From Chloroflexota bacterium (GTDB taxonomy: Bacteria > Chloroflexota > Anaerolineae > B4-G1 > SLSP01), in assembly GCA_022707665.1 (NCBI GenBank), contig JAKJAE010000065.1:1-11222 (forward strand): a stretch of 11,222 bases of DNA, in the 5' to 3' direction. The notes beneath the pieces were generated by a model that saw only the letters and a list, made by a program, of their open reading frames with translations, did no database searches and was not told the DNA's origin. Positions within the stretch are counted from its first letter, which is position 1, and each line of letters begins with the position of its first letter. The position numbers and the translations under genes are program-made. Below are positions 1 to 11,222 of this stretch, piece by piece.

Positions 1-307
1 GGACCCTCGCAAGGTTTCTGCGCTCGTGGTATGCCAGCGAACAGCAGAACCCCTCGCAGAGTCCAGAAACTCTGCGAGGGGAGGCTTTTCCTTGCGAGGG
101 TTTCTGGACCCTCGCAAGGTTTCTGCGCTCGTGGCATGCCAGCGGGCAGCAGAACCCCTCGCAGAGTCCGGAAACTCTGCGAGGGGAGGCTTTTCCTTGC
201 GAGGGTTTCTGGACCCTCGCAAGGTTTCTGCGCTCGTGGTATGCCAGCGAACAGCAGAACCCCTCGCAGAGTCCGGAAACTCTGCGAGGGGAGGCCTTTC
301 CTTGCGA
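1..307. repeat. Three tandem copies of a 105-bp unit, each with two perfect hairpins
   Basis: Copies begin at 1, 106 and 211; the third breaks off near 307, where TTGCGAGGG becomes TTGCGATGG. Copies differ at only a few bases. Each unit carries a type A hairpin (50-81, 155-186, 260-291) with 13-bp arms CCCCTCGCAGAGT / ACTCTGCGAGGGG around a 6-nt loop (CCAGAA or CCGGAA). A type B hairpin (90-119, 195-224) has 12-bp arms CCTTGCGAGGGT / ACCCTCGCAAGG around TTCTGG. Position 1 already lies next to a type B right arm, so the array probably extends left of the window. The alternating palindromes resemble REP/BIME-type intergenic repeats. Since 105 is 35 codons, one frame stays open through the array, but the resulting 35-residue peptide repeat looks like a by-product rather than a gene. 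Related hairpins recur at 2519-2686. Confidence 0.95.
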
Positions 308-329
308 TGGGGAGAGACCGGCCTATCAT
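302..329 (+). promoter_or_regulatory. Possible sigma70-type promoter for the glycosidase gene
   Basis: TTGCGA (302-307) and TATCAT (324-329) are separated by 16 nt and match the -35 and -10 consensus at 4 of 6 and 5 of 6 bases. Transcription would start near 336, leaving a leader of about 50 nt before the ATG at 387. The -35 element is the last piece of the third repeat copy, so the broken repeat may supply part of the promoter. This is a pattern match only; such matches arise by chance and the host sigma factor is unknown. Confidence 0.35.
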
Positions 330-373
330 CCAATCGGGTCGACCATAGAACGGCCCCAACCCCGCGCCCTTTC

Positions 374-378
374 AGGAG
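374..378 (+). promoter_or_regulatory. Shine-Dalgarno AGGAG for the glycosidase gene
   Basis: AGGAG lies 8 nt upstream of the ATG at 387 and supports that start over the out-of-frame ATGs nearby. Confidence 0.7.
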
Positions 379-386
379 ATACGCCC

Positions 387-2501
387 ATGGACACATGCGT
401 CCTCGAAAACCACGCCCTGCGCCTCACCTTCGACCGCGCCACCGGCGCGTTGGTCGGCCTCACTGCCATCGAGACCAACTGGAGTCTGCTCGACCGCCCG
501 CACCTGGGGCTCTCGTTCCGGCTGCTGGTGCCGCTCCGCCGCTCGACTGACGACTGGCTCACCGGCAAGCGCAATAACCCGGTCTTCGGCGAAAAGCAAG
601 CCCTCACGTCACTCGACGTCGCCGCCGACGGCCGGAGCGCCACCTTCATCTGGGACGGCGTCACCTCGGAGGAAGGCGGCCCGCTGGATATCAAGGTGGT
701 CCTCACCGTGGACATGGCCCCCGTCGCGGCTGTCCCCGCCGTCACCTTTACGATGACGATCGAGAACCGCTCGCCTTACACCGTCGAGGCCGCCTTCTGC
801 CCCTATCTGGGGGACATCGCGCACCCCGAGGGCGCGGACTGGTTCAAGACCTTCATCTACCAGTACGCCACGGCGGGCGAGGCGTCGCTGTGGCCCACCT
901 ACACCAACATGCGCGGCTACTACGGCGTCGACTATCCCATCCAGCTCGCCGCCGGCGCGCCGATGTCGCCCTACATCCTGCTGCGCAGCGCGGATCAGGG
1001 GCTCTACGCCGGCGTCGCCGCGCCGAGCTCCGAGCTCGTGGCCTGGCACACCGAGCTGCACCCGGGCTACGGCAGCTCGATCGACGCGCGCGTGCCCGAG
1101 ACGCGAACCATCGCCGGGCAGGATGTGGCCACGCGCTTCGCAGCGGTCCACATGCCCTTCATCCAGCCGGGCGAGACGCGCGCACTCACGCCGGTGATGC
1201 TGGCCCCCTTCCAGGGTGGCTGGCAGCAGGGCGTCGAGGTCTACAAAGCCTGGCGCAACACGTGGATGCGCACGCCGGCCCTCCCCGCGTGGGCGCGCGA
1301 GCCCCACGCGTGGCAGCAGATCCACATCAACTCGCCCGAGGATGAGCTGCGCATCCGCTTTACGGACCTAGTCAAGGTGGGAGAGGAATGCGCCCGCCAC
1401 GGCGTCAAGGCCATCCAGTTGACGGGCTGGAACTTCGGCGGGCAGGACCAAGGCAATCCCTCCCACGACCCCGACCCGCGCCTGGGCACCTTCGAGGAGC
1501 TGCGCGAGGCCATCGCCGCCATCCAGGCGCTGGGCGTGAAGGTGATCCTCTTTGCCAAGTTCACGTGGGCCGACCGGGCGACCGAGCGCTTCCGCAAAGA
1601 GCTCATCAAGTATGCCGTCAAGGACCCCTACGGAGACTACCAGGTCCATCCGGGCTACCAGTACCACACGATGACGCAGTTGCTCGACCTTAACAGTAAG
1701 CGCTTCGTGCCGATGTGCTTCCTGAGCGAGGACTATCTGCGCATCTGCGAGGAGGAATTCCAGAAGACGCTGGACCTGGGCGCCGACGGCATCCTGTTCG
1801 ATGAGTGCCTGCACCACAGCCCGACGCTGCTCTGCTTCGACGAGAGCCACGGCCATCGCTACGCCGCGCCGGTCTACGCCAACGACAACCGGCTGATCCA
1901 GGGCTTCGCCGAAATGGCCTGGAAGCGCAACCCCGACTTCCTGTTTGCCGCAGAGGCCGCCTACGACTGGGAGTTCGAGGCCTATCAGGCGTCCTACCAC
2001 CGCAGCGAGAGCAAACACCACATCCCGCTCAGCCGCGTTATGCTGCCCCACGCCCTGCTGGTGACGGCGGTGACCGGCTTCAACGACCGCAATATGGTCA
2101 ACCAGTGCCTGCTCTACCGGTACGCCATCAGCTACGAGCCCTACAACTTCAAGGGACACCTCGACGACTATCCCGAGACGATGGCCTACGGCAAGCAGAT
2201 GGACGCGCTGCGCACCGAGCTGCGCGACATCTTCTGGGACGGTGAGTTCCGCCACGAGATCGGCGCCACGGTCACCGTTGAGGGTGCGCGCCACCACCCC
2301 TACGCCGTCTATGCCGGACGCTCAGATGGCAGGCCCGGCGTGGTGGTGGCCAACTACGATGACCACAAGACGGTCACGGTGGCGGTAACGATGGACGACG
2401 GCACGCGCCTGACCCGCTACCGGCTCGTCGACGACCCGCGATGGACGTCCACCGACGAGGGCATCGTCCTGCCGCCCTGCTCGGCAGCGGTGGTCGTCTA
2501 G
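387..2501 (+). CDS. TIM-barrel glycoside-hydrolase-like protein (DUF6259-like)
   Basis: A 704-residue protein with no signal peptide or membrane segment, so probably cytoplasmic. Residues 1-275 look like an N-terminal beta-sandwich (it opens LENHALRLTFDRATGAL, common in sugar-binding and mutarotase-like folds). Residues 295-600 look like a (beta/alpha)8 barrel, and 620-704 like a small C-terminal beta domain. Barrel landmarks are KAIQLTGWNFGG (341-352), GVKVILFAKFTW (383-394), the strand end DGILFDE with D467, D472 and E473, and FLFAAEAAYDWE with E523 and D527. By analogy with clan GH-D enzymes such as GH36, D472 could be the nucleophile and E523 or D527 the acid/base; that assignment is inference. 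It most resembles the uncharacterised DUF6259 group. The substrate is unknown; an alpha-linked glycoside is plausible. There is no sugar transporter or regulator in view, and the gene stands alone between two blocks of palindromic repeats. Confidence 0.8.
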   Translation: MDTCVLENHALRLTFDRATGALVGLTAIETNWSLLDRPHLGLSFRLLVPLRRSTDDWLTGKRNNPVFGEKQALTSLDVAADGRSATFIWDGVTSEEGGPLDIKVVLTVDMAPVAAVPAVTFTMTIENRSPYTVEAAFCPYLGDIAHPEGADWFKTFIYQYATAGEASLWPTYTNMRGYYGVDYPIQLAAGAPMSPYILLRSADQGLYAGVAAPSSELVAWHTELHPGYGSSIDARVPETRTIAGQDVATRFAAVHMPFIQPGETRALTPVMLAPFQGGWQQGVEVYKAWRNTWMRTPALPAWAREPHAWQQIHINSPEDELRIRFTDLVKVGEECARHGVKAIQLTGWNFGGQDQGNPSHDPDPRLGTFEELREAIAAIQALGVKVILFAKFTWADRATERFRKELIKYAVKDPYGDYQVHPGYQYHTMTQLLDLNSKRFVPMCFLSEDYLRICEEEFQKTLDLGADGILFDECLHHSPTLLCFDESHGHRYAAPVYANDNRLIQGFAEMAWKRNPDFLFAAEAAYDWEFEAYQASYHRSESKHHIPLSRVMLPHALLVTAVTGFNDRNMVNQCLLYRYAISYEPYNFKGHLDDYPETMAYGKQMDALRTELRDIFWDGEFRHEIGATVTVEGARHHPYAVYAGRSDGRPGVVVANYDDHKTVTVAVTMDDGTRLTRYRLVDDPRWTSTDEGIVLPPCSAAVVV

Positions 2502-2518
2502 GGATCACACAGACCTTG

Positions 2519-2564
2519 CCCTTGCGAGGGTTTCCCCGCGTTCCGACGCGCACCCTCGCAAGGG
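2519..2564. terminator. Possible transcription-stopping hairpin after the glycosidase gene
   Basis: A perfect 13-bp stem, with a nested 5-bp stem in its loop, begins 17 nt after the TAG at 2499-2501. It lies in a convergent gap, where structures of this kind often end transcription from both sides. There is no U-tract, so it is not a canonical intrinsic terminator. A role in mRNA 3'-end stability, or simple repeat residence, is equally possible. Confidence 0.3.
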
Positions 2565-2686
2565 TTCTGGCGCTCGACCGCGTTGCTCCGCATGCCGGAA
2601 CCCCTCGCAGGGCGCGGAAGCCCTGCGAGGGGAAGATCTCCCCTTGCGAGGGTTTCCCCGCGTTCCGACGCGCACCCTCGCAAGGG
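2519..2686. repeat. Diverged B-A-B copy of the hairpin repeat family
   Basis: Three palindromes follow each other. Two type B hairpins (2519-2564 and 2641-2686, 122 bp apart) have 13-bp arms CCCTTGCGAGGGT / ACCCTCGCAAGGG and a longer loop that itself folds (CGCGT-TCCG-ACGCG). Between them is a type A hairpin (2601-2632), CCCCTCGCAGGGC / GCCCTGCGAGGGG around GCGGAA. Order and core sequences match the array at 1-307, but the units are longer and two stem pairs of type A have changed on both arms. The block fills most of the gap between the convergent glycosidase and ada genes. In the remaining 2687-2764 I see nothing recognisable. Confidence 0.93.
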
Positions 2687-2764
2687 TTCCAAGCGCGCAA
2701 CTGCGTTGACCCCAGAACCCGCGGCTCAGCACTCTCGCGACCGCGAAATGCGATGGCCCTGGGT

Positions 2765-3817
2765 CTATGCCTCCTCGCGCTCCAGGAGCGCGCGCTTGCG
2801 CTCGAGGCCCCAGCGATAGCCGCCCAGCTCCCCATCGCCGCGCACCACTCGGTGGCACGGCACGGCGACGGCAAGGCGGTTCGACGCGCAGGCTTGCGCC
2901 ACGGCGCGAGCCCCCCGGGGATTCCCGACCCGCGCCGCGAGCTCGGCATAGCTGACGGTCGAGCCAGCCGGGATCTGTTGCAGTGCCGCCCAGACCCGGC
3001 GCTGGAACGCGGTCCCCTGGATATCGAGCGGGAGCGAGAGCCCGCGTTCCGGCGCCTCCAGGAGCGCGAGGACCTCGCGCTCCGCATCCGCCAGCCCGGC
3101 GCCGTCCTCGCCAAGGTCGGCGCGCGGGAAATCGGCGCGCAGCCGCGCGACCAGGGCCTCCGGGTCATCGCCAAGGTCGATGCGGCAAAGGCCCTGGTCC
3201 GTTGCAGCAATCAACACCCAACCGAGATAGCCCTGCGCCAGAGCGTAATGGATAGCCATGTCGGCGCCTCCTGTCTTGTACTGAGCGGGCTTCATCCCCA
3301 GTGCGGGGGACGCGTAGAAGGTGCCCGCCGACCCAAAGCCCGCGCCATAGACCGCGTCCGTGACCGTCTCCCCGGCGCGCAGGCCCTCGCGGACGCGGCG
3401 CGCCCGCATCTCCATCGCGTACTGTTTGGGTGAGACCCCCACACGCTCCTTGAAGAGCCGCTGAAAGTGAGTGGGGCTGTAGCCGGCGGCATCCGCCAGC
3501 TCCCGCAAGGTGGGCGCGCGCTCGGCCTGTTCGATCGCCCTGCAGGCCTCGATCACGGCCTGCAGCGCCGCATCCGACGCCGCCGGCATCCGGGGCCTGC
3601 AGCGCTTGCACGGGCGGAACCCGGCAGCCTCCGCGGCCTGCCAGGCATCGAAGAAGCTCACATTGTCGCGGTTGGGCAAACGCGACGGGCAGCCGGGCCG
3701 ACAATAGATGCCCGTCTTCGACACCGCGTACACAAAGGCATCGGCTGCCGCCGGATCGCGCTCCGCCACGGCGTCCCAGCGCGCCGCATCCGTCTGATAG
3801 GCTTGAGGATCGTTCAC
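2765..3817 (-). CDS. ada: Bifunctional Ada: methyl-phosphotriester sensor / O6-alkylguanine-DNA methyltransferase
   Basis: The 350-residue product is close to the 354 of E. coli Ada. Residues 1-78 form the Ada zinc domain with C39, C43, C70 and C73 (GIYCRPGC and PCKRC); C39 corresponds to the residue that accepts methyl groups from phosphotriesters. Residues about 85-185 are an AraC-type double helix-turn-helix (TLRELADAAGYSPTHFQRLF). Residues 190-350 are the methyltransferase part with PCHRVV, where C321 takes the alkyl group from O6-alkylguanine, followed by GGYRWG. In this family, self-methylation of the N domain turns the protein into a transcription activator, including of its own gene. 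The start is GTG at 3815-3817, supported by GGAGG 6 nt upstream and by family length. The stop is TAG at 2765-2767. No alkB or alkA follows; the gene is a single unit converging on the glycosidase gene. Confidence 0.96.
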   Translation of the reverse strand: MNDPQAYQTDAARWDAVAERDPAAADAFVYAVSKTGIYCRPGCPSRLPNRDNVSFFDAWQAAEAAGFRPCKRCRPRMPAASDAALQAVIEACRAIEQAERAPTLRELADAAGYSPTHFQRLFKERVGVSPKQYAMEMRARRVREGLRAGETVTDAVYGAGFGSAGTFYASPALGMKPAQYKTGGADMAIHYALAQGYLGWVLIAATDQGLCRIDLGDDPEALVARLRADFPRADLGEDGAGLADAEREVLALLEAPERGLSLPLDIQGTAFQRRVWAALQQIPAGSTVSYAELAARVGNPRGARAVAQACASNRLAVAVPCHRVVRGDGELGGYRWGLERKRALLEREEA

Positions 3818-3823
3818 GGACCA

Positions 3824-3828
3824 CCTCC
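3824..3828 (-). promoter_or_regulatory. Shine-Dalgarno GGAGG deciding the GTG start of ada
   Basis: On the minus strand GGAGG lies 6 nt before the GTG at 3817. An ATG at 3828-3830 is out of frame and overlaps the ribosome site, so GTG is the likely start. Confidence 0.75.
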
Positions 3829-3839
3829 ATCCACGAACC

Positions 3840-3889
3840 AGTATACGGTAGTGCGTGCGCCGGGGCTATCGATTTCTTGCGCTGTAATC
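3840..3889 (-). promoter_or_regulatory. ada promoter with Ada operator
   Basis: Read on the minus strand, 3875-3889 is GATTACAGCGCAAGA. It matches the E. coli ada operator, recalled as AATTAAAGCGCAAGA, at 13 of 15 bases, including the GCAA box with a 6-nt spacer from a GAT in place of AAT. A -10 element TATACT lies at 3840-3845 with no good -35 (TAGCCC at the expected place), as expected for a promoter that needs activator contact. Transcription would start near 3833, only about 16 nt before the GTG, and the operator would centre near -49. Auto-activation by methylated Ada is therefore likely. The comparison sequence comes from memory, not from a search. Confidence 0.7.
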
Positions 3890-4238
3890 CGGTAGGGGCA
3901 CCCCTTGTGGGTGGCCTCTGGTTAGCCGTTCCGGGGCCCGGAGGGCAGGGACAAGCCCTGCCCCTACAACCGGAAACGCGCAGGCCCACGTTGGGAAATG
4001 CGGTCGGCGCGTTCAAATCGCTGACCGCCCGCGCCTATATCGCCGTGTCCACAATGCCGGCTGGCCTGCATTCGACCGCCGGATCTGGCAGCGCAACTAC
4101 TGGGAACACGTCGTGCGCAACGAGACCGAGCACGAGCGCACGGTAGGCTACGTCCTCGACAATCCATCGCGCTGGCGACCGGACGAGCACACCGATGACG
4201 CATGGCCCGATTTCCTCGACCCGTATGATTCGCCATAG
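3886..4238 (+). pseudogene. Remnant of a Y1/RAYT (IS200-like) transposase, 5'-truncated and frameshifted
   Basis: Two adjoining reading frames together give the C-terminal half of a REP-associated tyrosine transposase. Frame one (3886-about 4050) reads NPVGAPLVGG, then a linker with GQGQALPLQPETRRPTLG and VGAFKSLTARAYIAV. A one-base shift near 4050 moves to frame two (4050-4238), with GWPAFDRRIWQRNYWEHVVR, then NETEHERTVGYVLDNPSRW and a TAG at 4236. WQRNYWEHVVRNE is the conserved C-terminal helix block that carries the tyrosine in this family. The N-terminal HUH domain, with its HxH motif, is absent. No start codon or ribosome site is apparent and the gene cannot make an active enzyme. It abuts the ada operator, so an element once inserted or recombined here. 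Assignment rests on remembered family motifs and is firm for the C-terminal block. Confidence 0.85.
3889..3973. repeat. GTAGGGGCA...TGCCCCTAC inverted repeat with inner hairpin, inside the transposase remnant
   Basis: Outer arms GTAGGGGCA (3892-3900) and TGCCCCTAC (3959-3967) are exact reverse complements and are flanked by CCGG on both sides (imperfect on the right). Nested in the right part is GGGCAGGG-ACAAG-CCCTGCCC (3943-3963), an 8-bp stem. A weaker hairpin, GCACCC-CTTGT-GGGTGGC, lies in the left part. The whole element is in frame with the transposase linker (VGAPLVGG to GQGQALPLQ). It is unrelated in sequence to the CCTTGCGAGGG family elsewhere in the window. Confidence 0.8.
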
Positions 4239-4411
4239 GTGCCCGATCCGATAGTACACGGCGAGCGAGCGGATGGAGCGCGTGTTCCGCCGAAACACGC
4301 ACAGGCCAGCACGGTCCTGGCAACGAGGCTCAGGATGATGTGGACGCGCGCTCCGTAGAGATAGTCCTTCACCCCATTTGCCGCCACACTTACCTCGTGT
4401 CGCTCTTTGAA
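4239..4411. other. Gap with no recognisable gene
   Basis: Between the transposase stop and the operon promoter I find no protein family signature on either strand. Minus-strand open frames here continue into antisense of the helicase gene and look incidental. One small hairpin is present, GCGTGTT-CCGCCGA-AACACGC (4280-4300), without a U-tract. The stretch may be older mobile-element debris. Confidence 0.5.
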
Positions 4412-4440
4412 TTGGCACGCAACAATAATGCGACTATGAT
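4412..4440 (+). promoter_or_regulatory. Sigma70-type promoter of the helicase operon
   Basis: TTGGCA (4412-4417) and TATGAT (4435-4440) are exactly 17 nt apart, each matching consensus at 5 of 6 bases except the -35, which matches at 4 or 5 depending on the position weighting. They lie in a locally AT-rich patch (AACAATAATG) within otherwise GC-rich DNA. A start near 4447 gives a leader of about 64 nt before the ATG at 4511. It is the best promoter match I see in the window. Confidence 0.6.
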
Positions 4441-4510
4441 GGATTCGTATGCGTCGAGAAACCAGCAAAGTGCAAGACCGGCAAGGTGATGACCCACCAG
4501 AGGGAATGCA

Positions 4511-7500
4511 ATGGACGTCTTCGACCTTAGAAACGCGCTGATTGCTGACTATGCCTCCTACATCAGGAGCTTCATCCAGATCCGCGATGCCCGGATCCGC
4601 GCTTATGTGGACCAGGCGCTCGACCAGGGTCTCCTGTGGCCCGATCCGCTCATCCAGCTTAACCCGTCGTTCGAGCCGGGAAGCTGGGTCGACGACCTCT
4701 GTGATGAAGGGCTTCTCCACCCTGCCTGCAGATGGGTATTCCGTCGCAAAGCACACGCCCAGGACCGTGGCCAACCCCTGCGCCTGCACCGCCACCAGGA
4801 GGATGCCATCCGCACGGCCCGGGCTGGCCACAACTATGTTCTGACCACGGGCACCGGCTCCGGCAAGAGCCTCGCCTACATCATCCCCATCGTCGACCAC
4901 GTCCTCCGCCACGGGAGTGGCAAGGGCACCCAGGCCATCATCGTCTACCCGATGAACGCCCTGGCCAACAGCCAACTTGGCGAGCTCGAGAAGTTCCTCA
5001 AGTTCGGCACCGACGACGGCAGGGGGCCGGTGACCTTTGAGCGGTACACCGGTCAGGAGAACGACGAAGAGAAGAAGCGGATCATGGCCAATCCGCCGGA
5101 CATCCTCTTGACGAACTATGTCATGCTGGAGCTGATCCTCACTCGTCCCGACGAGCGCAAGACGTTGGTCAACGCGGCGCAGGGATTGCGTTTCCTGGTG
5201 CTCGACGAGTTGCATACCTATCGCGGCCGCCAGGGCGCCGACGTCGCCATGCTCGTCCGCCGTGTTCGTGAAGCCCTCAACGCCGACGCCATGCAGTGCG
5301 TCGGCACCTCGGCCACGCTGGCGGGCCAGGGAAGCCTCGAGCAACAGCAGGCGGAAGTGGCGAGAGTGGCGTCCACCCTTTTCGGTGCGCCGGTGCGCCC
5401 GGAGCACGTCATCGGCGAGACACTACGGCGCGCCACCAGGGAGGCTGTAGCGACGGACGCGAGCTTCCTCGCCCGGCTCCGCGCGAGCATCCAGAGCCCG
5501 GCCCTGCCCACGGACTACGATGCCTTCGTCGCCCACCCGCTCGCGAGCTGGGTCGAAAGCACCCTGGGATTGTCAGCCGACACCAGCAGCGGACGCCTCG
5601 TCCGTGCCCATCCCCGGAGCCTCACCGGCGAGGGCGGAGCAGGCCACGACCTGAGCGCGCTGACCGGGCTGCCCGAATCTGACTGCATCGGCGCTCTGCA
5701 GGCCACGCTGATGGCAGGGTACGATGCCGAGAATCCCCAGACGAAATTCCCGGCCTTTGCCTTCCGCCTCCATCAGTTCATCAGCCGGGGCGACACGGTG
5801 TATGCCTCTCTGGAGCCGGAGGGCCGCCGCCACGTCACCGTCCATGGACAGATGTTTGTTCCGGGCGAGCGAGACAAGGTGTTGCTGCCATTGGCCTTCT
5901 GCCGGGAGTGTGGTCAGGAGTACTACGTAGTTCGGGCAGCCAAGGACCCCGAGACGAAGGCCGACCGCTACATCGCCCGCGACCTCGGCGAGGTCCGTGG
6001 TTCCGAGGGCGGCGAACCCGGCTTCCTCTATCTGAGCGAGGCTGACCCCTGGCCTGAGGATAGCCGCGAGGCCCTTGACCGTCTCCCCGAGGACTGGCTT
6101 GAGGAGCAAAACGGCCAGCTCGTCATCAAGCGAAGCCAGCGCAAGAACCTGCCCATCGTGCGGCGCGTAGCGCCCAACGGCGTTGCCGGGCCTTCGGGCC
6201 AGACCGTGACCTTTCTCCAGGCGCCTTTCCGCTTCTGCCTGCACTGCGGCGTCTCCTATGACGCCCGGCAGTCGTCGGACTTCGGCAAGCTCACCCAACT
6301 GAGCTCCGGGGGGCGCTCCACGGATACGACCATTCTGGGTCTATCGCTCATCCAGAAGCTCAAGAACGATGAAACCCTCCGCCCGGAAGCACGCAAGCTC
6401 CTGAGCTTCACCGACAACCGCCAGGACGCGTCACTGCAGGCCGGCCACTTCAACGACTTTGTCGAGATCACCCTGCTGCGCTCCGCACTCTATCGCGCCG
6501 CCGAGGCTGCCGGAGACGCGGGGATCACGCACGATGTGCTGACGATCAAGGTCTTCGAGTCGCTCGCTCTCCCGATCGAGGTCTATGCCAGTGACCCCGA
6601 GGTCCGTTTTGCCCAGAGGGCGGAGACCGACCGTGCCCTGCGCGAGGTGCTCGGCTACCGGCTTTACCGCGATCTGCGCCGCGGCTGGCGCATCACGTCG
6701 CCCAACCTCGAGCAGTGTGGCCTCTTGCGAATCGACTACGTGTCGCTGGATGAGCTGTGTGCGGCCCAGGACGTCTGGCAGCACACGCACGCGGCGCTGG
6801 CATCGGCCACACCCGAGACGCGAATGCGGATCGCCCGTGTCTTGCTCGACTACATGCGCCGTGAGCTGGCGATCAAAGTCACCTACCTGGACCAGGCCAA
6901 CCAGGAAAGCATCAAACAGCTCAGCAGCCAGCGATTGGTTGCTCCCTGGGCCCTCGACGAGAATGAGGACTTCCACCACGCCGCGATCCTCTTCCCCCGC
7001 CCTCAGATGGCCCACGAGGACGAGTATCGCGGGAACCGCTTCTTGTCGCCCCGGGGTGGCTTTGGGCTCTTCCTCCGGCGTACCACGACCTTCCCGGACT
7101 ATCACGAGCGTCTCACGATCCCCGAGACGGAAGCCCTCATCGACCAGATCCTCGATGGGCTGCGGATCGCCGGCCTCGTTGAGCGCGTGGTCGATGCCAG
7201 GAATGATCCCGGGGGAAAGCCCGGCTTCCAGCTCCTGGCCTCGGGCATGATCTGGCGCGCCGGTGACGGCACAACGGCGTTCCACGACCCGATCCGCGTA
7301 CCCCGGATGCCCGAACAGGGCGGCAAGACCAACCCCTTCTTCGTCGACTTCTACCGCTCGGTCGGACGAAAGGTGTTGGGCATCGAGGCGCGGGAGCACA
7401 CGGCTCAGGTGCCGGCGGCCGAACGGGAGGACCGCGAGGCGCGCTTCCGCAAGGCGACCCTGCCCATCCTCTTCTGCTCGCCGACGATGGAGCTCGGTGT

Positions 7501-9700
7501 CGATATCGCCGAGCTCAACGCGGTCAACATGCGCAATGTGCCCCCCACGCCGGCCAACTACGCCCAACGCAGTGGGCGTGCTGGCCGGCAAGGGCAACCG
7601 GCCCTGGTCTTCACCTATTGCACGATCGGCAGCCCCCACGACCAGTACTACTTCAAGCGCCCGAGCCTGATGGTCTCGGGGGCCGTGAGCCCGCCGCGCA
7701 TCGATCTCACCAATGAGGACCTCATCCGCAGCCATGTCCAGGCGATCTGGCTCGCCCAATCGGGCTTGAGCCTCGGGCGGTCGCTCAAAGATCTCCTGGA
7801 TCTGACAAAGGAACCCGATCTTCCGTGCATCGATGCCGTGCAGGAAGCGCTCTCCAACGTGCACACGCGCGTTCGGGCCAGGGCACGGGCCCAAGCCATC
7901 CTGAGCGACATCGAGCACGAACTGGCAGGTGCCGATTGGTGGAACGAGAGGTGGTTGGACGGTGTGCTTGGGCAAGTCGATCTGGAGTTCAACCGCGCCT
8001 GCGGGCGCTGGCGCGACCTCTACCGCGCCGCCAAGAACCAGCTCGAGGTGCAGCACGCCATCATCCGCGACGCGAGCCGCACCACCCAGGACAAGCGCCA
8101 GGCCCAGCGCCTCTACCAGGAGGCCCAGAGCCAGCTCGAGCTCCTCACGGAGGCCGAGAACATCATCCAGTCTGACTTCTACTCCTACCGCTACTTCGCC
8201 AGTGAGGGCTTCCTGCCGGGCTATAGCTTCCCGCGGCTGCCCCTCTCGGCTTACATCCCGGCGCGTCGCATCCGCAGCCAGCACGATGAGTTCCTCTCGC
8301 GGCCCCGGTTCCTGGCGATTTCCGAGTTTGGCCCACGCTCCATCGTCTACCACGAGGGCTCCCGCTATGAGATCAACCGGGTGAACCTTCCCGTGTCGGA
8401 GACCGGCGAGGGCCTGGCCACCACACGCGCCAAACAGTGCATCGCCTGTGGCTACCTGCACCCGATCACGAGCGGCGATGGCCTCGACCGCTGCGAGCGC
8501 TGCGGTGCCCTGCTCGAGGCCCCCCTCGACAACCTCTTCCGTCTGCAGAACGTCTCCACCCGGCGCCGCGATCGCATCTCGTCTGACGAGGAGGAACGCT
8601 TCCGCCAGGGATTCGAGCTGCGGACCGCGATCCGTTTCGCCGACCACGGCGGCGTCACCTCAGCGCGTACGGCCCAGATCTGTCACGAGGGCGATATGAT
8701 CGGCACCCTTACCTATGGCCACGCGGCCACGCTCTGGCGGATCAACCTCGGCTGGCGCCGGCGTGCCAATCAGGACCAATTTGGCTTCATCCTCGATACC
8801 GAGCGAGGCTACTGGGCAAGCGAGAAGCAAGAAGGGACGCCATCCGACGATGACCCTCTATCGCCCCGCACGATGCGCGTGATTCCCTTTGTCGAAGATC
8901 GCAAGAACTGTCTGATCTTCGAACCGGCGGTGATGGAAGCCAAAGGCAGCATGGCCTCGCTGCAGGCAGCGCTCAAGAGCGCCATCCAGGTAGAGTTCCA
9001 ACTGGAGGACACCGAGCTTGCGGCTATGCCTCTGCCCGATATCGACAACCGGCGTGCCATCCTGCTCTATGAGTCGGCCGAGGGCGGAGCGGGCGTGCTC
9101 CGTCGCCTTGTCGACGACGACGGAGCCTTTGCCCGCGTCGCCGTGCAGGCGCTCCAGTTGTGCCACTTCGACCCGCGGACCGGCGAGGACCTTCGCCGCG
9201 CCCCCAATGCCAGAGAGGACTGCGAGGCCGCCTGCTACGATTGCCTGATGAGCTACACCAACCAGATCGACCATCCGTTCCTCGACCGGCAGGCGATCCG
9301 TGCCTATCTGATGCGCTGTAGCCGGTCCACGCTCGAGGCCTCGCCCCGGGTGGCCTCGCGGTCAGAGCACGTTGGACGCCTGTTGGCGCTCTGCCAGTCG
9401 GACCTGGAGCGCGAGTGGCTCGCCTTCCTGGGGGCGGGCAACTATCGCTTACCTACCCACGCACAGCGTCTCATCGAGGCCTGCCAGACACGGCCCGACT
9501 TCCTTTATGAAAGCGAACACGCGGCAATCTATGTCGATGGCCCGCATCACCGCTACCCGGAGCGGCAGGCGCGTGACCTGGCCCAGCAGGAGTGTATGGA
9601 GGACACCGGCTACACGGTGATCCGGTTCGCGCTTCAGGAGGACTGGGAGGGCATCATCAAGCGCTATCCCTCGATCTTCGGAGGGAGCACCCAACCATGA
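4511..9700 (+). CDS. SF2 helicase - DUF1998-type region - Vsr/DUF559-like nuclease fusion, DISARM-like
   Basis: This 1729-residue cytoplasmic protein begins at the ATG preceded by GAGGG 6 nt upstream. RecA lobe 1: HQ (95-96), Walker A GTGSGKS (114-120), [10 protein letters not shown] (146-155), DELH (232-235) and SAT (267-269). Lobe 2 seems split: [18 protein letters not shown] (630-647), then about 330 residues before [16 protein letters not shown] (990-1005) and QRSGRAGR (1019-1026). Two CxxC pairs (C464/C467, C576/C579) may form one zinc site. Residues 1165-1220 are strongly helical and possibly coiled-coil. A DUF1998-type part follows with C1310/C1313, C1328/C1331 and the signature [15 protein letters not shown] (1571-1585). 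Residues 1630-1729 carry DLEREWL, PDF (D1663) and VDGPHH (D1676), the pattern of Vsr/DUF559 PD-(D/E)XK nucleases. In DISARM, helicase DrmA and DUF1998 protein DrmB are separate; here both are fused. A role in anti-phage defence is inference; DNA repair by an MrfA-like helicase is the alternative. Confidence 0.85.
9680..9684 (+). promoter_or_regulatory. Shine-Dalgarno GGAGG before the second operon gene
   Basis: GGAGG lies inside the end of the helicase gene, 12 nt before the ATG at 9697. The spacing is long, so reinitiation at the ATGA overlap (ATG 9697-9699, TGA 9698-9700) may contribute as much as direct ribosome binding. Confidence 0.5.
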
Positions 9701-11222
9701 CCTACGCCGTCGGTTCCCTGGTGAAAGCGCGCGGGCGCGAATGGGTGGTCCTCCCCGATTCTTCCGCCGATCTGCTCGTCCTGAGGCCGCTCGGCGGCTC
9801 CGATGACGAGATCACGGGCGTCTACCTGCCCCTTGAGCCGGTGTCCCCGGCGACCTTTGACCTGCCCGACCCGGCCCACGTGGGCGATTACCGTTCGGCG
9901 CGCCTGTTGCGCGATGCCGTCCGCCTGGGGTTCCGCTCCAGTGCCGGCCCGTTCCGCTCCTTTGCCCGGCTCGGCGTCGAGCCGCGGCCTTACCAACTGG
10001 TCCCGCTCCTGATGGCGCTCAAACTCGACCCCGTGCGCTTGCTTCTGGCTGACGACGTGGGCATCGGCAAGACTATCGAGGCCGGCCTGATCGCGCGCGA
10101 GTTGCTCGACCGTGGCGACATCGAGCGCCTGGCGGTGCTCTGTCCCCCGCCGCTTGCCGAGCAGTGGCAGACCGAGCTGCGCGACAAGTTCCACATCGAG
10201 GGCGAGCTCGTGCTGCCCTCCACCGCCGCCCGGCTGGAGCGCGACCTGTCCATCGGCGAGTCGCTCTTCGAGCGCTACCCCTATGTCATTGTCTCGCTCG
10301 ACTACATTAAGTCCGACCGACGCCGCGAGGAGTTCCGCCGCGCCTGTCCCGAGTTCGTGATCGTCGACGAGGCCCATACCTGCGCCTTCGGTGCCGAGCG
10401 GGGCGGGCGTCACCAACGCCACGAGTTGATCCGCAGCCTCGCCCAGGACCCCGATCGGCACATGGTCCTCGTCACCGCCACCCCCCACAGTGGCAAGGAG
10501 CATGCCTTCCGCTCGCTTCTCGCCTTCCTGGATCCGGACTTTGCTGAGCTGCCCGAGGACCTGACCGGCGAGGCCAACCTCCGCCACCGGCGGCGCCTGG
10601 CCCAGCACTTCATTCAGCGACGCCGGGCCGACATTCGCACCTACCTCGACGCGGACACCCCTTTCCCCGCACGGGAGGACCGCGAGGAGAGCTACAAGCT
10701 GAGCCCTGACTACCGGCGGCTCTTCGACCGGGTGCTGGCCTATGCCCGTGAGTCGGTGCTCGACAAGACAGGTGGGGCTTTCCATCAGCGCGTCCGCTGG
10801 TGGTCCGCGCTGGCGTTGCTGCGCTCGCTCGCCTCGAGCCCCGCCGCCGCTGCGGCAACGCTGCGCAACCGCGCCGCGCCCGCCGAGGCCGAAACTGAGG
10901 AAGAGGTCGACGAGATTGGGCGCCGCACGATCCTCGACCTGGTCGTTGACGAGGCCGCCGACGGCTCCGACGTCACCCCGGGCTCCGACCCGGGCGATGG
11001 AGAGGACGAGGGCCAGAGCAACCGCCGCCGACTCCTGGAGATGGCGCGCATGGCCAACAGCCTTACCGGCGCGAAGGACGAGAAGCTGACGAAGGCCGTG
11101 GCCCTCATCAAGGGACTGCTCGATGACGGCTTCCACCCGATTGTCTTCTGCCGCTTCATCCCCACGGCGGACTATGTTGCCGCCGAGCTGCGCGCCCGCC
11201 TGCCCAGAGGCGTGGAGGTCGT
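9697..11222 (+). CDS. SNF2-family ATPase, DrmD-like (3' end beyond window)
   Basis: The frame is open to the window edge, giving 508 residues of a longer protein. Residues 1-50 ([18 protein letters not shown]) look like a small beta domain. Helicase landmarks follow: PYQL (98-101), Walker A DDVGIGKT (119-126, K125), DEAH (224-227), motif III TATPHSG (260-266), and the start of the second lobe at HPIVFCRF (480-487). An acidic, low-complexity stretch (about 395-440) separates the lobes. The N-terminal domain and the [20 protein letters not shown] block resemble the SNF2-like protein DrmD of class 1 DISARM, as remembered. The gene overlaps the helicase-nuclease gene by 4 nt and is surely co-transcribed and translationally coupled, implying that the two ATPases act in one process. 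SNF2 proteins use ATP to translocate on duplex DNA or remodel protein-DNA complexes, usually without strand separation. The missing C-terminal part should hold motifs V and VI. Confidence 0.88.

Follow-up and report, generated by a model that had tools for sequence, protein, structure and literature searches.

The window examined here, 11,222 nucleotides (nt) of Chloroflexota bacterium (assembly GCA_022707665.1, contig JAKJAE010000065.1, positions 1–11222), very probably covers the opening two genes of an anti-phage operon of the ARMADA Type I kind, whose third gene, for a PglX/Eco57I-type methylase, would have been lost at an assembly break. ARMADA is a recently described relative of DISARM (Bell et al. 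2025, bioRxiv preprint, PMC12458937), and no definition of it beyond this source turned up in the literature searched. In the parts of the preprint drawn on here, Type I is described as a YprA-like helicase with DUF1998 and a Vsr-type nuclease, followed by a BrxHII/RapA-like helicase and then a PglX-like methylase; reversed gene order is also reported there. The window agrees with this layout: its first gene encodes a helicase to which DUF1998 and a C-terminal Vsr-type nuclease are fused, its second the RapA/BrxHII-like ATPase, and in its relatives a PglX/Eco57I-type methylase stands third. It differs in that a scaffold gap breaks the operon off, which leaves the methylase unseen; the relatives differ among themselves in gene order and accessory genes and frequently lack the nuclease motif. 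The locus is an ordinary additional member of the already described Type I, most likely the front two-thirds of the operon of a real defence locus broken off at the assembly break.

The visible part of the operon consisted of two open reading frames (ORFs) on the forward strand. ORF1 (4511–9700; 1729 amino acids, aa; ATG start) could be assigned as the ARMADA Type I helicase, a helicase-DUF1998-nuclease protein, from domain models, the phylogenetic tree and its homologue in the relative L003, and it was preceded by GAGGG at 4500–4504, a probable ribosome-binding site read from the sequence, as was GGAGGG at 9680–9685 for ORF2. ORF2, identified from domain models as an SNF2/RapA-like (BrxHII/DrmD-related) ATPase, starts with an ATG at 9697 that overlaps the TGA stop of ORF1 (ATGA) and runs past 11222 to the end of the contig. 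Both proteins and their ATGA coupling stand as the initial annotation had noted them, the ORFs, domains and overlap being read directly, and chance could be ruled out for either ORF because full-length homologues exist at roughly 40–66% identity. What ends the window at 11222 is a scaffold gap of 10 N (11223–11232 of contig C475) inside the SNF2 gene, after which the gene resumes in another frame over 305 bases. A frameshift in ORF2 was rejected, as the frame change spans the assembly gap and is therefore no evidence of one. The initial annotation had also pointed beyond 11222 for a methyltransferase; the SNF2 gene continues there to 11537, where the contig ends, and the methylase could be seen in relatives.

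Domain analysis of ORF1 revealed a YprA-like helicase with the OB-CON-DUF1998 part in one chain, as in ARMADA Type I, and the conservation of its motifs was read from an alignment of 13 homologues. The RecA1 (DEAD) domain (4790–5323, aa 94–271; Pfam DEAD E 4.9e-28) contained an invariant Walker A motif GTGSGKS (aa 114–120) and an invariant DELH (aa 232–235). Ahead of RecA2, two CxxC pairs in invariant columns, C464/C467 and C576/C579 (5900–6247), probably mark a predicted inserted zinc-binding module. The RecA2 (Helicase_C) domain (7373–7594, aa 955–1028; Pfam E 3.7e-13) contained the invariant QRSGRAGR motif (aa 1019–1026), and two further CxxC pairs at aa 1310–1331 were likewise invariant. 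The MZB/DUF1998 zinc domain (8960–9247, aa 1484–1579) exceeded its Pfam cut-off (E 6e-10), and its cysteines C1571, C1575 and C1578 were invariant. Furthermore, a structural model of aa 1090–1729 (predicted local distance difference test, pLDDT, 74) matched MrfA (6znp) in Foldseek at E 3.4e-7, and the same entry was also a sequence match to ORF1 with 84.7 bits.

The C-terminus of ORF1 carries a Vsr/DUF559-like PD-(D/E)XK nuclease motif (9428–9682, forward strand), in which RPDF (aa 1661–1664) is followed by YVDGPHH (aa 1674–1680). The residues D1663, D1676 and H1680 were all present and the motif was intact. The Pfam DUF559 model at aa 1663–1708 scored 19.6 bits on the whole of ORF1, just under its cut-off of 20.6, and 23.7 bits, above it, on the isolated C-terminal 145 aa. 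Among 26 homologous C-termini picked for an intact motif, DUF559 was matched in 23 and MTES_1575 in 18, and the Pfam Vsr model was absent among the matches. Judged by its motif, ORF1 has the Vsr-type PD-(D/E)XK nuclease, predicted active, of ARMADA Type I; 'predicted active' is also the wording for the Type I nuclease in the preprint passages (PMC12458937).

ORF2 matched the Pfam SNF2-rel_dom model (E 5.1e-13), and RapA chains came top in the PDB search (E about 3e-17), in agreement with the BrxHII/RapA-like helicase that is the second gene of ARMADA Type I. The BrxHI and BrxHII models gave 127.9 and 98.3 bits, and the DpdE and DrmD models scored higher, with 551.2 bits for the PADLOC DpdE model PDLC02853 and 186.2 bits for DrmD.

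The closest helicase relative was found in a Chloroflexota metagenome-assembled genome (MAG) at locus L003, with 65% identity over aa 1–1724 of ORF1. In a FastTree phylogeny of 63 helicase rows, in which long branches were flagged for DrmA and Calothrix, among others, the window was sister to L003 (100%). Both belong to a 46-row clade, with a FastTree local support of 100%, that includes the loci carrying a helicase, an SNF2 and an N6-methylase gene. Three rows (L042, L043, L092) formed a sister group, and outside the clade were five ARMADA-II-type rows, three Druantia-III rows, a Calothrix row that fits the PADLOC DruE2/DruE4 models, and one DrmA. A separate four-row clade of Chloroflexota YprA-like helicases (L047–L050, from G034, G022, G042 and G028) lay near the Druantia rows and could be TALON or another class.

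The pairing of the two genes, which the initial annotation had proposed to survey, was borne out among full-length Chloroflexota helicases of at least 50% identity, the window excluded, where 19 of 21 were followed on the same strand, within 1.5 kb, by an SNF2 gene; for the remaining two (G330, G265) the contig breaks off some 0.5 kb past the helicase, as inferred for G265 from the length of the cut locus. Among full-length helicases below 50% identity, 20 of 31 had an SNF2 gene within 30 kb (eight downstream and nine upstream on the same strand, three on the opposite strand) and 11 had no such gene. All three genes were present on 44 of 58 stretches, L003 among them, these stretches being partly picked for nearby SNF2 or methylase matches and including one plasmid twice (L053 and L122); the other 14, the window contig included, had one or two of the three missing from the stretch. 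The third gene of L003 encodes a DNA methylase matching Eco57I, N6_Mtase and MmeI_Mtase, with weak matches to PglX and other methylase models.

Across a sample of 400 Chloroflexota genomes, the window's own included, a helicase match at E ≤ 1e-90 occurred in 64, and at E ≤ 1e-60 an SNF2 match occurred in 56 and a methylase match in 77; the methylase query may also catch other methylases, and therefore 77 is not an operon count. None of the four listed congeneric genomes had a comparable helicase match, while 5 of 19 other listed family members had one at E ≤ 1e-200. The helicase was also matched in 268 plasmid records, 70 of them with coverage of at least 80% and many being near-copies. Relatives are encoded on six viral contigs, and in three of these the SNF2 gene comes straight after the helicase. 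The operon on the Nocardioides plasmid pNOCA01 was flanked by drmA/drmB and a McrC-family gene, and a more distant relative on a Thermus plasmid had brxL and genes of a type III CRISPR system nearby. Patchy spread, plasmid and viral carriage, and DISARM, McrC and CRISPR neighbours in some relatives support a defence role, in which the present locus would share.

Variation within the operon could be seen at several loci. Extra genes comprised a DUF6036 nucleotidyltransferase gene in L003, a four-helix-bundle gene in L053 and a Phd/VapC-type pair in L104. The operon of ARMADA Type I kind on plasmid MP1 of Deinococcus radiodurans R1 (L056) has its methylase annotated as two genes and adjoins an ISDra3 transposase. 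In G022 (contig C190, L038), the SNF2 gene lies about 9.6 kb downstream of the ARMADA helicase gene on the same contig, so that a reading of this helicase as an 'orphan' was rejected; the interval, which includes a 1900-aa ORF among others, looks like an insertion into the operon. Two other helicases looked stand-alone: for G023 the contig ends about 9.6 kb downstream and elsewhere only a 34%-identical SNF2 protein was present, and for G049 no SNF2 match at E ≤ 1e-40 was found and the contig ends 1.3 kb past the helicase. In L124, L125, L126 and L137 a short conserved ORF stands between the helicase and SNF2 genes; it was discarded, being the helicase's own C-terminal frame in the loci compared.

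Several observations weigh against the assignment to ARMADA Type I. The methylase is unseen in the genome of the window, where the contig stops inside the second gene, and a methylase search of this MAG (73% complete) gave weak matches only (best E 1.2e-4). The nuclease was a weak sequence match (best PDB profile E 0.031), and among the best 50 Foldseek matches of the ORF1 C-terminus the sole nuclease was FAN1 at E 0.82, which was taken as chance. A BrxA-like helical insert after RecA1 is said to mark the helicase lineage in the passages of PMC12458937 considered; aa 240–965 of ORF1 were modelled poorly (pLDDT 60) with no PDB fold match under E 1.0, and a profile of the same region gave three matches, the best at E 0.13 to a 1970-aa helicase. 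A helical block near aa 310–409 was modelled at pLDDT 61–89. The label of the 46-row clade was assigned here from gene order, with no published Type I reference protein in the tree, and six of its loci (L009, L035, L037, L038, L040, L103) show no SNF2 or methylase gene on the stretch. No recognised defence neighbour was present in the window, where an Ada-type protein and a DUF6259 protein lie upstream, nor beside the operon in some other plasmid loci inspected, and phage records gave only three partial matches. Moreover, the type tested in cells was ARMADA Type II, not Type I (PMC12458937, in the parts consulted).

To the initial annotation the locus looked like a compact DISARM-type module, which would make it a Class 1 DISARM variant with fused DrmA and DrmB and a PD-(D/E)XK domain perhaps standing in for DrmC. 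Class 1 DISARM shares with the window and its relatives a DrmD-related ATPase, a YprA-family helicase and a methylase; DrmD was the best NCBIfam model of ORF2, and the methylases of the relatives matched DrmMI models best in PADLOC. However, the incomplete ORF2 reached 205.6 bits against a DrmD cut-off of 610 and 79.2 against one of 950, the complete homologues of L003 and of L051, a Deinococcus radiophilus plasmid operon, stayed at 313.8 and 314.0 against 610, and ORF1 scored 17.5 bits on NCBIfam DrmA, whose cut-off is 950, and 47.6 bits on PADLOC DrmA compared to 342.5 on DruE. In DISARM drmA and drmB are separate genes, whereas helicase and MZB form one chain in the window; according to the preprint sections used (PMC12458937), fusion in a single chain is the usual state of YprA-family proteins and the consistent split is peculiar to DISARM. 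The tree, too, groups ORF1 with loci of ARMADA Type I layout and splits it from the DrmA encoded on pNOCA01, the Nocardioides plasmid that has DISARM genes and an ARMADA-type operon side by side. A DISARM variant is thus very unlikely, and what remains of a DISARM-related module is the DrmD/RapA-like partner, the fused helicase-DUF1998 chain and the nuclease, not the DISARM identity itself.

The best PADLOC family of ORF1 was DruE (DruE3), with a YprA core common to both, which would suit a Druantia-type system with an unusual partner, and the closest solved helicases by sequence, chains 9tu7_Y (2108 aa) and 9wae_A (1970 aa), are presumed to be DruE from their lengths alone. Yet the DruE beside an STY4851/ECs_5259 gene (L097), taken as Druantia III, scored 2207.8 bits on the same model, about six times the score of ORF1. 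Two DruH-type queries, which did find each other and L102, gave no match at E ≤ 1e-3 in the window (a short contig), the 58 stretches or the six viral loci, and in the tree the window does not fall among the Druantia III rows, so that a Druantia system is extremely improbable. A Dpd system was rejected, though PDLC02853, named DpdE, fits ORF2: on NCBIfam, the DpdJ model gave 76.7 bits against a cut-off of 800, and the incomplete ORF2 reached 133.7 and its complete homologues 187.0 and 204.2 against a DpdE cut-off of 500. Because the DruE at L097 scores so much higher, and DpdE, DpdJ, DrmA and DrmD of NCBIfam lie far under cut-off, the PADLOC DruE and DpdE labels are, by these scores, cross-matches. 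If the locus were a housekeeping helicase pair for DNA repair, like MrfA/YprA, this would account for the MZB domain and for the structural and sequence matches to MrfA, but the distribution is patchy in congeners, family and phylum, the genes are carried on plasmids and viral contigs, and the helicase is accompanied by SNF2 and methylase genes. The conserved synteny that the initial annotation associated with such a helicase was not what was found, and we give a repair pair hardly any credence. ARMADA Type II, labelled here from annotated gene order at plasmid loci L093, L098 and L099, also has an SNF2-like helicase, a methylase and a YprA-like helicase; its order is SNF2, methylase, a helicase of 2.1 thousand aa and a UvrD/GajB-like helicase, whereas the helicase of the window is 1729 aa long, comes first and falls in a different branch of the tree.

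For the preferred ARMADA Type I assignment, a working mode can be proposed by analogy. The methylase would mark the host's own DNA, and the RapA/SNF2-like ATPase would travel along double-stranded DNA and, with the methylase, discriminate unmarked incoming DNA from self. The YprA-like helicase may load on 3' single-stranded regions of phage DNA, as DruE loads on 3'-tailed DNA in the portion of PMC13192584 consulted, and may move 3'-to-5' under the OB-CON-DUF1998 canopy, as shown for MrfA. The Vsr-like nuclease, whose motif is present, could then nick or cut the strand. The outcome would be direct, non-abortive clearance of the phage, as for ARMADA Type II, which in the available passages of PMC12458937 protects Escherichia coli without cell death, with all four genes required and the ATPase and methylase motifs mattering.

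Among the 44 three-gene loci, both aspartates (D1663 and D1676, window numbering) were kept in 30, and 14 were without one or both. A stand-alone GxxExxY/PD-(D/E)XK_3 gene in the operon was found in 4 of the 14 loci with Asp loss against 1 of the 30 intact ones (Fisher p 0.029, uncorrected for kinship or for the several traits inspected; L142 and L143 are closely related, and L053 and L122 are one plasmid). Such a gene lies between the SNF2 and methylase genes in L003 (12648–13025), L123, L124, L125 and L138. The main-text passages of PMC12458937 considered here make no mention of nuclease loss in Type I, and such losses may already be known. It is conceivable, if rather doubtful, that the fused nuclease of ARMADA Type I is dispensable or replaceable, the core being DNA tracking and blocking by the two ATPases with the methylase, and the cutter acting in trans or being absent.

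Upstream of the operon, the window encodes a 704-aa DUF6259 protein on the forward strand (387–2501; 49.1 bits, cut-off 28.7), perhaps a sugar-acting enzyme. An Ada-type bifunctional regulator/O6-methylguanine-DNA methyltransferase follows on the reverse strand (2768–3817; NCBIfam PRK15435, 409.1 bits, cut-off 345). A GC-rich palindrome (CCCTCGCA...TGCGAGGG) occurs in three 105-nt tandem units and more copies, at 1–315 and 2519–2689; its pattern recurs 15 times across the MAG, with four occurrences in this contig, and the reversed pattern, taken as a control, gave no match. The initial annotation had mentioned mobile-element debris; palindromic repeats are present, and a candidate RAYT-like transposase remnant at 3987–4235 matched no Pfam family and was dropped.

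Taken as an ARMADA Type I operon, the locus is one that the 2023 PADLOC models would split into DruE and DpdE, and it belongs to a system that is widespread but patchy in Chloroflexota. Because natural relatives without the catalytic residues exist, the comparison of relatives makes it testable whether defence needs the helicase's own nuclease.

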